64,000 nt of DNA, taken from positions 1-64,000 of the forward strand of contig SCSF01000133.1 of NCBI GenBank assembly GCA_004298435.1, in the 5' to 3' direction. Position 1 is the stretch's first letter; every line of letters starts with the position of its first letter. This stretch comes from Beijerinckiaceae bacterium. Lineage in GTDB: Bacteria; Pseudomonadota; Alphaproteobacteria; Rhizobiales; Beijerinckiaceae. Made by a program: the position numbers and the translations under genes. Positions 12,828 through 21,512 of the stretch are shown piece by piece. The notes under the pieces were generated by a model that saw only the letters and a program-made list of their open reading frames with translations, searched no databases and was not told the origin of the DNA.

Positions 12828-15488
12828 TTAGCCCGCTACCAGCGGCCTTCGGGTCCGTCGCAGAATTTCCTTCAATTCGGAAATACAGGAACCGCAGTTC
12901 GTGCCGGCGCGCAGCTTTCTGCCGAGCGCATGCACGTCCTCGATTTCATCTGCGGCGATAGCCTCGCGGATCGTGTCGATGCCGACATGAAAGCAGGTGC
13001 AGATGATGCGGCCGTGCGACGTCGCGCCGCCTCTGATTGCTCCACTCAGAAGCGACAGGCGGCAGCCGCCATCAAGCGGCGCTTTTCCGGCAAAGAGATC
13101 GATGACGGCCCCGGCCTCAGGCAGTCTGCCGGGCTGACCGAGGAACAGACATTCCTCGATCCCGTTGGCGCTCACAAAGGCGAGACGCGTGACGCCACGG
13201 GCCGGATCGCGATATTCGATCAGCTCCCAGCCCTCTTGCGGCGCAAGCAGCGCTTCGGCGGCATCCGCCATCTCCGTTGCGGGCTGCGGGCCTCTCAACC
13301 GGTAGATCTCGCATCCCATGCCGGGCCGCCGCGACCAGTAAAAAGAGTTTGAGGGCTTGAAGCGCCGCCGCGTGATGAGCAGCATTTCGAACCCAGTCAC
13401 GACCTTCTCGATCGTTACGGGCGTATGTTTCAATTCCGGCTGATGCGAAATCGGATCGACGGCGGGATTGGCCAGGGCTCCGGCGACGCAACGCCCTGCG
13501 AATTGGTCGCTCCAGTGCATCGGCAGAAAAAGGCTGCCGTCCGGCTGGTCAGGCGCCACCCGCGCCTCGGCGAGTGCCGTGCCCCATGAGGTCGTGAGCC
13601 GGACGAGATCGCCATCGGAGATGCCGCGTTTTGCAGCGTCTCCCGGCGCAATTTCGACGCAGGGCTCTGGCCGGTGCAGCGACAGTCGCGGCACGAGGCC
13701 GGTGCGGGTCATCGTATGCCATTGGTCGCGCAACCTGCCGGTATTGAGGATCAGCGGATAGGCTGCGTCCGCCGCGAACCGCGGCGCGCGCTGGCGCACA
13801 GCGACGAAGTGACCGCGCTGGTCCTCTGTCGGGTAGAGGGCATCATCGAGCAGCCTTTGCGTGCCCTCGTCGCGGCCAGCGGAGACAGGCCATTGCACGG
13901 GTGCAAGCGTGTCATAGGCGGCGTCATCGATGTGCATCAGTCCGCCAAGATCGAAACGGCGGGCGTCGTCATTCTCGAAAGCCGAAAGCGCCGCATGTTC
14001 GCGAAAAATGTCGGCGGCGCGCCGGTACGGAAAGCTTGCCGCGTAACCAAGACGCTCCGCGACTCCGGTAACTATAGCCCAGTCGCAGCGTGCCTCGCCG
14101 GGCGGCGCGCGAAAGGCACGCTGGCGTGAGATTCTCCGCTCCGAATTGGTGACGGTGCCGTCCTTTTCGCTCCAGCCGGCGGCGGGCAGAAGCACATGCG
14201 CCAGTTCTGCCGTGTCCGTTTCCCCGGTGCAGTCCGACACCACGACGAACGGACAGTCTGCGAGCGCCTGCCGCACCTTGCCGGCATTCGGCATGCTGAC
14301 CGCCGGGTTGGTGCCCATGATCCAGAGCGCCTTGATCTGCCCGTCGGCGACGGCATCGAACATTTCGACCGCTGGGAGCCCGGGCCGCTGCGCCATGTTC
14401 GGCGCATTCCAGAAGCGACAAACCTTGTCGATCGCTGCCGGATCGTCAAAGCTCATATGCGCCGCAAGCTGATTGGCCAGGCCGCCAACTTCGCGCCCGC
14501 CCATCGCGTTGGGCTGGCCAGTGAGTGAGAAGGGTCCGCTGCCGGGCTTGCCGATCCGCCCCGTAGCGAGATGGCAATTGATGATGGCGTTCACCTTGTC
14601 GGTGCCCGCGGACGACTGGTTGACGCCCTGGGAATAGGCAGTGACGGTCTTCTCCGTCCCGGCGAACCAGTCGTAGAAGAGCTTGAGATCGCGCGGATCG
14701 AGGCCACAGCGGGCGGCAACCGAGGCGAGAGAGCCGGCTTCTGCGGTCGCCGTCGCAAGAGCCTCCGCAAACCCCGAGGTGTGGCTGCCGATATATTCGG
14801 CGTCGATCGCATCTTTCGCCGCAAGATACGCCAGCAGGCCATTGAAGAGCAGAACGTCCGTACCGGACGCTATGGGGAGATGTAGATCGGCCGAAGCGGC
14901 GCTTGCCGTCCGGCGCGGATCGATCACGACGACGCGCGTGCCATGCTTCTCGCGCGCGGCCTCAAGGCGCTGAAACAGGATTGGATGACACCAGGCTGTA
15001 TTGGAGCCGACAAGAACAACGAGATCGGCGCTATCGAAATCTTCATAGCAGCCAGGCACGAGATCTTCGCCGAAGGCGCGACGATGGCCTGCGACGCTGG
15101 ACGACATGCACAGACGCGAATTCGTGTCGATATTGGCGGTGCCGAGAAAGCCTTTCGCGAGCTTGTTGGCGACGTAATAATCCTCCGTCAGCAACTGCCC
15201 GGAGACATAGAAGGCAATCGACTCGGGGCCATGCTGGTCGAGCGCTTCCCGAAAGCGCTGTGCGACGAGATCGAGCGCTGTGTCCCATGCAACGCGGAGG
15301 CCGCCGGCTTTTGGATGCAGAAGACGGCCGGAGAGGCGAAGCGTTTCGCCGAGCGCGCTTCCCTTTGAGCAGAGCCGTCCCAGATTCGCCGGATGTTCAG
15401 AATCGCCTCTGACGTTGCCGTCTGAGTCGGCCACGACGCCGCAACCGACGCCGCAATAGGGGCAAGTGGTGTGCGTCTCTTTGCTCAA
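12828..15488 (-). CDS. nasA: assimilatory nitrate reductase catalytic subunit (molybdopterin, [4Fe-4S], C-terminal BFD-like [2Fe-2S])
   Basis: TTCPYCGVGCGV...GRLCSKGS N-terminus; molybdopterin oxidoreductase body; CTCFHVGIDTIREAI...GTNCGSCISELKEIL C-terminus. Confidence 0.92.
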   Translation of the reverse strand: MSKETHTTCPYCGVGCGVVADSDGNVRGDSEHPANLGRLCSKGSALGETLRLSGRLLHPKAGGLRVAWDTALDLVAQRFREALDQHGPESIAFYVSGQLLTEDYYVANKLAKGFLGTANIDTNSRLCMSSSVAGHRRAFGEDLVPGCYEDFDSADLVVLVGSNTAWCHPILFQRLEAAREKHGTRVVVIDPRRTASAASADLHLPIASGTDVLLFNGLLAYLAAKDAIDAEYIGSHTSGFAEALATATAEAGSLASVAARCGLDPRDLKLFYDWFAGTEKTVTAYSQGVNQSSAGTDKVNAIINCHLATGRIGKPGSGPFSLTGQPNAMGGREVGGLANQLAAHMSFDDPAAIDKVCRFWNAPNMAQRPGLPAVEMFDAVADGQIKALWIMGTNPAVSMPNAGKVRQALADCPFVVVSDCTGETDTAELAHVLLPAAGWSEKDGTVTNSERRISRQRAFRAPPGEARCDWAIVTGVAERLGYAASFPYRRAADIFREHAALSAFENDDARRFDLGGLMHIDDAAYDTLAPVQWPVSAGRDEGTQRLLDDALYPTEDQRGHFVAVRQRAPRFAADAAYPLILNTGRLRDQWHTMTRTGLVPRLSLHRPEPCVEIAPGDAAKRGISDGDLVRLTTSWGTALAEARVAPDQPDGSLFLPMHWSDQFAGRCVAGALANPAVDPISHQPELKHTPVTIEKVVTGFEMLLITRRRFKPSNSFYWSRRPGMGCEIYRLRGPQPATEMADAAEALLAPQEGWELIEYRDPARGVTRLAFVSANGIEECLFLGQPGRLPEAGAVIDLFAGKAPLDGGCRLSLLSGAIRGGATSHGRIICTCFHVGIDTIREAIAADEIEDVHALGRKLRAGTNCGSCISELKEILRRTRRPLVAG

Positions 15489-16699
15489 GCGGCCATCTCC
15501 GGCTGGAATATCAGAAGATCGCGCGGAGCCTTGATCGAGCGGCGGCTCTGGATGAAGTCCAGATAATCCGCGCCACCCTGCACGTCGCCGTAGAGCAGGG
15601 CGCCGACGAGCCGCTCATCGCGGGCGACAAGGCGTTTGTAGATTCCGCGAGCGGCATCGCGGAACATCAGGATCTCCGTATCCTCGTCGCCATAAATGTC
15701 GCCTGTCGAGAACACGTCTATGCCGGTGACCTTGAGACGCGTTGCTGTTGCAGCAGGCTTGTAAAGGGCGGAATGATCGCCGCAGAGCCGCGCCGCCAGA
15801 GTCCGCGCCATGTTATAGAGAGGCGCAACGAGGCCGAAAACCTCGCCGCGATGTTCCACGCATTCGCCGATTGCGGAGATGGCGGGATCGTTCGTTACGA
15901 GCCGATCATCGATTTCGATTCCGCGGTTCACGGAGAGGCCACAACTCAGCGCAAGCTCGATGTTGGGCCTGATGCCGATGGCCATGACGACAAGACTTGC
16001 TGCTATTTCGCAGCCGTCTGCAAGGATGACGCTCTCGACATGATTGCTGCCAAGGATCGCCTCGGCTGTCGCATTGGTGATGACGTTGATGCCGCGCCAC
16101 GCGAGGTCCTTTCTGAGCATGGCTCCAGCGACGGGATCGAGTTGCCGCTCCATCAGATGCGGCATGAGATGCAGCACGGTCACTTCCATGCCGCGCCGTC
16201 TCAGGCCATAAGCCGCCTCAAGTCCGAGCAGACCGCCGCCAATGACGATTGCCTTGCCGCCTGTCGCCGCCGCCTTCTGCATGGCCTCGACATCGGCGAC
16301 GGTTCGAAAGCTGACGACGCCGGGCAAGGCGGCCCCTTCGATGGGCAGCATCAGCGGCATGGAGCCCGTTGCCAGGATCAGATGGTCATAGGCTGCGCGT
16401 ATTCCTGATTCGCTGACGACTTCTCGCGCGGCACGGTCGATGCCGACGATCTTCTGGCCGGCACGGAAGGTTATGCCGTGACGCGCATACCAGCCGTGGT
16501 CATGTAGTAGAATCGATGCGAAATCCTTCTCTCCCGCCAGCATTGGGGAGAGCTGGATCCGATCGTAATTGCCATAGGGTTCGGCGCCGAAAACAGTAAT
16601 GGCGTAGCGGTTCGGCGCACGCGCGACAATCTCCTCAATCGCACGCATGCCAACAAGCCCGTTGCCGATGAGCACGAGACGCTTCGCTTCAGAATTCAT
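15485..16699 (-). CDS. FAD/NAD(P)-dependent oxidoreductase, nitrate/nitrite reductase electron-transfer subunit (NasB/NirB N-terminal-like)
   Basis: LVLIGNGLVGMRAIEEIV, EPYGNYDRIQLSPML, GKAIVIGGGLLGLEAAYGLRRRGMEVTVLHL; overlaps nasA start. Confidence 0.88.
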   Translation of the reverse strand: MNSEAKRLVLIGNGLVGMRAIEEIVARAPNRYAITVFGAEPYGNYDRIQLSPMLAGEKDFASILLHDHGWYARHGITFRAGQKIVGIDRAAREVVSESGIRAAYDHLILATGSMPLMLPIEGAALPGVVSFRTVADVEAMQKAAATGGKAIVIGGGLLGLEAAYGLRRRGMEVTVLHLMPHLMERQLDPVAGAMLRKDLAWRGINVITNATAEAILGSNHVESVILADGCEIAASLVVMAIGIRPNIELALSCGLSVNRGIEIDDRLVTNDPAISAIGECVEHRGEVFGLVAPLYNMARTLAARLCGDHSALYKPAATATRLKVTGIDVFSTGDIYGDEDTEILMFRDAARGIYKRLVARDERLVGALLYGDVQGGADYLDFIQSRRSIKAPRDLLIFQPEMAA

Positions 16700-16887
16700 A
16701 TTGGGTCCTGATCCGCGCAAGGGCCATAGGGTTTTCGCACCCGTAAGCTCGCGGGCATGAGCCGCGAGACGAGCAGGCTCAGCGTCCAAGCAACTTGCGT
16801 GCCCAGATCAATTCCGGTGTGGAGGCGGTCTATGAGGAGTGGATTTGGCTATGCGTTATGCAGCCGCGCGCGGCGGGTGCCGAAATT

Positions 16888-19493: not shown

Positions 19494-21512
19494 TCAATGC
19501 TTCGGCGCGGCAGCGCGCCTCGCTTTCACCTCGTCCGCAGTGATGAGTTTGCTCTTGTTGCCCCAGGAAGAGCGCTCGTGGTTGATGATGTCCGCGATCT
19601 CTGCGTCGGTTAATACGCTTTCGAAAGGTGGCATCGGGGTCGCATATACGGTGTCGCCCACTTTCTGATCATGCAGTCCGTTCAGGACCGTGTCGATCTG
19701 CTTCGTTGGATTGGGATCCAGCACGGCGGCATCGCCCTTGAGCGGCGGGAACGCGCCCGGCAGACCCATGCCCGTTGGTTGATGGCAAGCCGAACAGTTG
19801 GCGGAGAACAACGCCGCGCCCTTGGCTGCATCGAAATGATAGGGGCCTGACGGCGCAGAAGGCTTGGGCGCCGCATGCTCCGCGGGTGCTGCCTCAGTCG
19901 CTGGTGAGGTTGGCGTAGAGTTATCGGCCTTGGCCGAAGACCCGCCGCTGCCGCGCACATCGAGAACACCGATCGCGCCGATCATCGCGTGCGCCATATC
20001 GTGATCGACAAAAGCGTATTTGCCGGGATCGGGGATAATGAGGTCGAAGATTGCGCCCGCGCCCGGCCCGACGGTGTAGGTGGATACGCCGCTCAGCGCA
20101 TGAGCCGAATCGCCATCGGGGTAAACTTTATCGAAGATCGCGCCGATGACATGGAACGAACTCCACAGACTTGGCCCGGCATCGACGAAATAGAGCCGCA
20201 CGCGCTTGCCGGCTGTGACCGGCAACGGGTGATCGCGGTACTGGAAGGCCGCGCCATTGAAGACGACTTCATCAGGGCGCTCTTTCAGCATTTTCTCGTA
20301 GCTGGGACCCATGAGCTTGCCGGCGACTTGTTGCGTGTACCACTCGCTTTGTTCAATGACGTAGCTCTCGGCGGCGGGCGGCAGCGGCTCCTTCGGATCA
20401 ACGACCATGACGCCATACATGCCGCTCGCAATATGCAGCAGCACGGGCGGTGTCCCGCAGTGATAGATGAATGCGCCGGGCACGCGCGCCACAAATGAGA
20501 ACTTGATCGATTTGCCGGGCAGCACGTCCACATAATGCTGGCTGGGCGCAGTCATGGCGGAGTGGAAATCAATGGAATGCTGCATCATTCCATGATTGGT
20601 GAAGGTCACATGGACCGTCTGTCCCTGCCGCACATGAATGATCGGGCCAGGCACGCTGCCGCCGAACGTCCACGCCTGATAGTCGACGCCGCTGGCGATC
20701 GCGACGGACTTGTCGGATGCGACCAGATGGACGCTGACACTGTCGCCCGTACCGATCAGCGGCGGCAGCCGCGCATCGCGCGGCGCGGCAATCGGTTTAT
20801 TGGAGGCAAGCGAAAGCGGTGAGACGGCCGCGGCGGCAGCGACCGTCGAAGGTGATCTCACATTCAATGTGCTGTGCAGCCCGCCGATCAGGAGCACCAC
20901 CAGCACTGCGACAGCCAGCATCGCTGGAATCTGCACGCGCCACGGGAGGGCGGGCGGCTCATGCGCGAACGTTTCATCGGTGCTCCATTCGGAGATGATG
21001 CGCCAGCGGGGCCAGCGCCGCTCAATGAAAAAGTCCAGGCTATAAGGGTTGCGCCCTTCAAGGGTATCGATGCCGATCAGGGCGACGAAGATCAGCACAT
21101 AGCTGATCGCAGTCCCCATATTGTTTGCGCCGACTGTATAGGGGCCGCCGAAGCCTTCCGCCGTGCTCCACACCAGCAGGCTGAACAGGGCGCCGATCAC
21201 ATACAGGGATTTGCGTGCAAAGCCGGTGAGCAGCGCCAGCGCGATCAGCGTTTCGACGATCCGTGTGAGCCAGGTGAAGAGCAGGACGTGAGGTGTTACG
21301 AGGGCGATCCACATGGCGAACCAGGGCGCCAGAAAAGCTGGCTGCCCTTGAGCGGCATTATGAAGATAGCCGACGTAGTGGACGGCGAAATCAGGCGACC
21401 AGGTGAGGGCGGCGCCGACTGCCCATATAACGCCGAAGGCAATTCGCAGCGCGGCGGTCGCGATGGGTGGCCAAAATCTGGAAAAAGAACCGTGAGGATT
21501 AATATGGGGCAT
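19494..21512 (-). CDS. fusion protein: N-terminal DoxX/DoxD-like membrane domain + NirK-type multicopper oxidase + C-terminal cytochrome c
   Basis: About 160 aa multi-TM N-terminus; MQHSIDFHSA...FIYHCGTPPVLLHIASGMYGVMVV cupredoxin ligands; SSFHVIGAIFDKV; YAFVDHDMAHA; C-terminal CSACH and MPPF of cytochrome c. Confidence 0.85.
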   Translation of the reverse strand: MPHINPHGSFSRFWPPIATAALRIAFGVIWAVGAALTWSPDFAVHYVGYLHNAAQGQPAFLAPWFAMWIALVTPHVLLFTWLTRIVETLIALALLTGFARKSLYVIGALFSLLVWSTAEGFGGPYTVGANNMGTAISYVLIFVALIGIDTLEGRNPYSLDFFIERRWPRWRIISEWSTDETFAHEPPALPWRVQIPAMLAVAVLVVLLIGGLHSTLNVRSPSTVAAAAAVSPLSLASNKPIAAPRDARLPPLIGTGDSVSVHLVASDKSVAIASGVDYQAWTFGGSVPGPIIHVRQGQTVHVTFTNHGMMQHSIDFHSAMTAPSQHYVDVLPGKSIKFSFVARVPGAFIYHCGTPPVLLHIASGMYGVMVVDPKEPLPPAAESYVIEQSEWYTQQVAGKLMGPSYEKMLKERPDEVVFNGAAFQYRDHPLPVTAGKRVRLYFVDAGPSLWSSFHVIGAIFDKVYPDGDSAHALSGVSTYTVGPGAGAIFDLIIPDPGKYAFVDHDMAHAMIGAIGVLDVRGSGGSSAKADNSTPTSPATEAAPAEHAAPKPSAPSGPYHFDAAKGAALFSANCSACHQPTGMGLPGAFPPLKGDAAVLDPNPTKQIDTVLNGLHDQKVGDTVYATPMPPFESVLTDAEIADIINHERSSWGNKSKLITADEVKARRAAAPKH

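Follow-up and report, generated by a model that had tools for sequence, protein, structure and literature searches.

The three-domain RpNiR of Ralstonia pickettii and PhNiR of Pseudoalteromonas haloplanktis are haem-tethered nitrite reductases in which a NirK core is followed by a C-terminal cytochrome c, with no membrane domain. In RpNiR, Asp97 and His240 form the catalytic pair, and Val241, Ala244 and Ile245 are also mentioned in the published work. Ile245 corresponds to His254 of AxNiR, the residue which controls the primary proton channel, and this gate position is Ile in both RpNiR and PhNiR. The linker residue Tyr323 of RpNiR (Tyr313 in PhNiR) is reported to be invariant in haem-tethered copper nitrite reductases (PMC6038957), and a change of Gln262 (Gln252 in PhNiR) or of Phe295 raises the activity of RpNiR. 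Membrane association is known from the lipoprotein NirK of Bacillus and Geobacillus, which uses a lipid anchor, has no transmembrane domain and is described with no cytochrome fusion (PMC3475470). Among membrane proteins, the DoxX/DoxD family (Pfam PF07681) forms a four-helix bundle, and in thiosulfate:quinone oxidoreductase (doxDA) the membrane part is made up of DoxD-family proteins (PMC2754497).

The window, a stretch of 64,000 nucleotides from a Beijerinckiaceae bacterium, encodes a DoxX-like membrane domain, an extra transmembrane helix, a NirK core, a linker and a cytochrome c in one uninterrupted open reading frame of 672 amino acids on its minus strand (21512 to 19494; all features below lie on this strand). 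A preliminary description of this DNA had located the same frame at 19494-21512 with no strand given, and its account of the architecture holds, including the membrane tether (five predicted transmembrane helices at the N-terminus), the C-terminal cytochrome fusion and the quoted motifs such as MQHSIDFH; its claims of a lost catalytic histidine and of a doubtful nitrite reductase do not. In a Pfam and NCBIfam scan, residues 258-522 match a NirK-type core and residues 562-645 a cytochrome c, with no match in residues 1-229. The best match among solved structures is RpNiR, aligned over residues 257-668 (9e-74). The full-length AF2 model (pLDDT 47) is too poor for use. No paper that treats DoxX and NirK together was found in a search of open-licence PMC articles, and a subscription paper could exist; hence this is a conserved NirK variant apparently undescribed in the published literature.

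The NirK core consists of two cupredoxin domains (residues 258-520; 19953-20741; TIGR02376, 4.1e-60). The type-1 copper ligands H312, C352, H360 and M365 align with RpNiR residues 94, 135, 143 and 148, the type-2 ligands are H317, H351 and H504 in the same alignment, and both sets are kept in 31 of 31 homologues. The same is true of the catalytic Asp315 (20568-20570), which corresponds to RpNiR Asp97, of the catalytic His454 (20151-20153), which corresponds to RpNiR His240, and of I456, the isoleucine two residues further on. The preliminary description had compared HVIGAIFD with HLIGGHGD and reported the catalytic histidine as substituted. However, the residue it took as catalytic is the second histidine of HLIGGHGD, a proton-channel gate. 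The stretch SSFHVIGAIFD is identical in the fusion and in RpNiR, and its first histidine is RpNiR residue 240, since Val241, Ala244 and Ile245 fit H-V-I-G-A-I when counted from 240. A check of the Asp and His positions against RpNiR thus finds the catalytic pair, D315 and H454, complete, and the alignment together with the published numbering rules out the loss. The suggestion that the protein may not be a classical nitrite reductase therefore falls too, as RpNiR is active with the identical motif. The HLIGGHGD form characterises a single NirK clade in the set of loci compared, and the fusions, RpNiR and their neighbours have HxIGxxFD. The NirK proteins with the motif HxIGEIFD, which we take to be AniA-like, likewise have no second histidine; unlike the fusion, those compared have no C-terminal cytochrome (except one from Azoarcus) and none has a DoxX-like N-terminus.

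The Ala/Pro-rich linker (residues 521-556; 19845-19952) differs from that of RpNiR and PhNiR. The gate tyrosine is absent from the linkers of 31 of 31 homologues, and the only nearby tyrosine, Y558, lies 15 residues from the first haem cysteine. Similarly, the position of RpNiR Gln262 is serine in all 31 fusions, and that of Phe295 is variable and never Phe. Since changes of Gln262 or Phe295 make RpNiR more active, the fusion seems to be an enzyme that is ungated by nature. The cytochrome c domain (residues 557-664; 19521-19844; Pfam Cytochrom_C, 1e-11) carries the haem motif C573-S-A-C-H577 and Met627, the probable axial ligand, with Cys, Cys, His and Met present in 31 of 31 sequences. It is 53-57% identical to the cytochrome c domains fused to FixO/CcoO of cbb3 oxidases, those of the source genome included, and 41% identical to that of RpNiR; it may therefore have been recruited separately. 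On contig C91 of the source genome (L055:5651-8415), a FixO/CcoO with two extra fused cytochrome c domains adjoins CcoN, and the same fusion is also present in a Bradyrhizobium.

Taken together, the protein is probably a membrane-anchored, haem-c-tethered NirK which reduces nitrite to NO at the periplasmic face of the membrane. The five-helix N-terminus, a DoxX-like bundle plus one helix, would hold the enzyme in the inner membrane so that its C-terminus projects into the periplasm. The cytochrome c would take electrons, most likely from the bc1/cytochrome c pool that would also feed the cbb3 oxidase, and pass them from the tethered haem c to the type-1 and then to the type-2 copper, where Asp315 and His454 would protonate nitrite. 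A nitric oxide reductase whose gene lies elsewhere would then consume the NO. In favour of this reading are the RpNiR alignment, which takes in the cytochrome; the complete conservation of copper ligands, catalytic Asp and His, I456, CxxCH and Met627; the five predicted helices with Lys and Arg on the cytoplasmic side of the DoxX-like part; and the resemblance of the cytochrome to FixO/CcoO-fused domains. The status of the fusion as the only NirK match in 11 carrier genomes also speaks for it, as do the NO-reductase-like haem-copper enzymes of the source genome and of four other genomes (G657-G660). Against this reading count the TIGR02376 score of 203.8 bits (about 185-208 in complete fusion members, 353.6 in RpNiR), which lies below a cut-off of 296.3 that is an NCBI naming rule and not a chemical feature, together with the long-branched clade apart from RpNiR, the absence of the gate tyrosine and Gln262, the lack of a denitrification operon, and the canonical NirK that 20 of 35 carriers have as well.

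The nature of the N-terminus, read as DoxX-like in the preliminary description, is supported indirectly. A direct Pfam match is lacking at E-values up to 10, and a PDB sequence search with this part gave no match. However, a profile of the fusion N-terminus finds separate alphaproteobacterial proteins (L047, 3e-37; L048, 1e-18; L049, 2e-14), of which L049 touches Pfam DoxX at 2e-4 and L047 at 0.0065, both just below the curated cut-off. Profile-profile comparison (hhalign) with a DoxX protein alignment gives 81-89% probability, with a reversed control under 2%, and R23, E87 and G97 of the fusion fall at the positions where DoxX has its invariant Arg, Glu and Gly. The fold lends weak support, as the Foldseek E-values are not significant and the probabilities are highest for TMEM35A/NACHO (0.51) and for a DoxX protein of viral origin (0.63, TMt 0.74). 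The N-terminus is thus a distant but supported member of the DoxX superfamily, too divergent from PF07681 for a direct match, joined to a periplasmic copper enzyme, and with a conserved EGFGGPY loop of its own. Proteins of ~320-390 amino acids, several of them with two fusion-related DoxX-like repeats, occur at L048, L049, L118 and in further genomes.

Hydropathy shows several hydrophobic stretches within residues 14-220. For residues 1-222, AF2 (mean pLDDT 74) predicts helices at 16-37, 40-56, 59-96, 100-115, 133-152 and 191-216, which are read here as four predicted DoxX-like transmembrane helices and a fifth. The four-helix domain, with helices 16-37, 59-96, 100-115 and 133-152, would span residues 16-152 (21057-21467), and the fifth helix, from hydropathy, AF2 and the distribution of Lys and Arg, is predicted to run toward the periplasm at residues 191-218 (20859-20942). 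The predicted cytoplasmic loops carry Lys and Arg, and the predicted periplasmic loops 38-73 and 116-132 have neither in all six first homologues; hence the NirK and cytochrome parts should be located in the periplasm.

Could the DoxX-like domain be a mere membrane anchor for an ordinary haem-tethered NirK? This is a possible but unlikely explanation. Five predicted helices that put the catalytic part in the periplasm, and the precedent of the membrane-associated Bacillus enzyme, fit it well. A mere anchor should drift, as other segments do more clearly: mean pairwise identity across 31 complete sequences is 69.7% in the fifth helix, 57.2% in the cytoplasmic loop 153-190 and 40.8% in the linker. 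The DoxX-like domain reaches 77.5%, against 77.7% for the NirK core and 70.9% for the cytochrome c, and its periplasmic loop STAEGFGGPYTVGANNM (residues 116-132; 21117-21167), at 88.6%, is the most conserved segment compared. R23, H51, R84, E87 and E119 are invariant in the 31 homologues, and H45 is kept in 30. It is unusual for such a domain to match the catalytic core in conservation, with the highest values towards the periplasm; the missing linker tyrosine is the second unusual feature. Because of its conservation the module probably does more than anchor, and it likely offers a partner or a quinone a site on the periplasmic face.

The architecture recurs well beyond the source genome. In the Rhodanobacter family the whole N-terminal profile has matches in 31 of 234 genomes; of 30 loci fetched from this family 28 are complete and two are interrupted by contig ends, and each of the 28 complete frames combines the DoxX-like domain with NirK and a single haem motif. 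A scan of named genomes, which relies on exact 8-residue patterns and misses diverged copies, recovered full-length relatives with 66-77% identity in Rhodanobacter, other Gammaproteobacteria and an Alcaligenaceae genome, as well as a contig-end fragment of the fusion in a Chloroflexi MAG. The survey of co-occurrence proposed in the preliminary description is thus positive, and a fusion unique to the source genome is ruled out. A chance fusion is likewise excluded, as complete homologues preserve architecture and motifs. Among 399 genomes sampled from the phylum only the source genome carries the fusion, no full-length match was found in other sampled genomes of the same order, and no plasmid-borne copy covering 80% of the query was found. 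In the NirK tree the fusion cores form one long-branched clade (100/98) whose internal branching is not resolved and which is not sister to RpNiR; the latter groups with an Azoarcus NirK-cytochrome. The gene shows no obvious foreign base composition (GC3 72.6 against 65.6-73.1 in its neighbours), and it is the distribution that points to transfer between lineages.

No conserved operon was found, and no denitrification operon surrounds the fusion in any of the loci read. About 3 kb from the fusion (window 12828-16789) lie a molybdopterin nitrate reductase-like gene and an NAD(P)H nitrite reductase/rubredoxin reductase-like gene, both probably assimilatory. At another locus (L039:4531-5582), genes for a hemerythrin-domain protein and a CopD-like membrane protein are located directly upstream of the fusion in divergent orientation, and a cbb3 CcoN with a cytochrome-fused CcoO occurs a few kb away. 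Elsewhere in the source genome, contig C82 (L053:913-3526) encodes in a row a CoxII-like protein, a COX1-like protein with GHTFINV at its active site and SCO/SenC. This cluster resembles the sNOR norSY-senC of ammonia oxidisers, for which published work leaves NO versus O2 reduction undecided. A COX1 similar to that of the source genome is found in G657 and qNOR-like proteins of 767-786 amino acids in G658-G660, these assignments being made by length and motif reading, as NCBIfam gave no name. Contig C19 (L054:6080-9304) carries consecutive genes for a multicopper oxidase, a cytochrome c and another NirK-like protein, this one with two domains, in an array similar to the Nitrosomonas ncgABC-nirK cluster.

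Carrier genomes bear on a further explanation, in which the same chemistry would clear nitrite or nitrous acid from the cell's surroundings in acid habitats instead of serving respiration. A canonical NirK above the cut-off stands beside the fusion in 20 of 35 carriers, several of which are incomplete assemblies, and a denitrifying phenotype in those 20 cannot therefore be assigned to the fusion. In acid, nitrate-rich groundwater Rhodanobacter is the dominant group (PMC8809349), and a Castellaniella raises its NirK at pH 5.5 (PMC12915299), although the DoxX-fusion type is not established for that NirK. However, the habitat link comes from record titles and papers, and the 11 carriers in which the fusion is the sole NirK match fit removal poorly, which makes this role rather unlikely.

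An improbable alternative, likened to qNOR in its relation to cNOR, is a quinol:nitrite oxidoreductase, in which the DoxX-like domain would oxidise quinol and feed the haem c or the type-1 copper with no need for bc1. The role of the DoxD family in thiosulfate:quinone oxidoreduction, the core-like conservation of the domain with its strongly conserved periplasmic loop, and its invariant charged and histidine residues would all suit such a function. Yet the DoxX-like domain has no Cys, no obvious ligands for a haem b site and no evident intramembrane His pair, and no relay is therefore visible that would take single electrons from a two-electron quinol. Its fully self-contained form, with a P-side quinol site in the DoxX-like domain that feeds a haem-c-tethered NirK free of the Tyr gate, must be considered quite improbable. 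Least probable is another copper oxidase or reductase, as had been suggested at the outset from the supposed loss of the histidine, for although the score below the NCBI cut-off, the separate clade and the altered gate and proton-channel residues could be read in this way, the catalytic Asp, His and Ile and all type-1 and type-2 ligands are invariant and the HisCAT motif is that of an active enzyme.

NirK is a main source of soil NO and hence of N2O, and pipelines which use the NCBI cut-off would leave the fusion unnamed. It offers a natural test of what the tethered domains of copper nitrite reductases do, and of the role of the linker tyrosine, as all 31 homologues are without it. In the Rhodanobacter family, dominant in the acid nitrate-polluted groundwater of Oak Ridge (PMC8809349), the fusion is common. 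If its electrons did come from quinol, the enzyme would bypass bc1 and would be the NirK counterpart of qNOR in denitrifiers of acid habitats.
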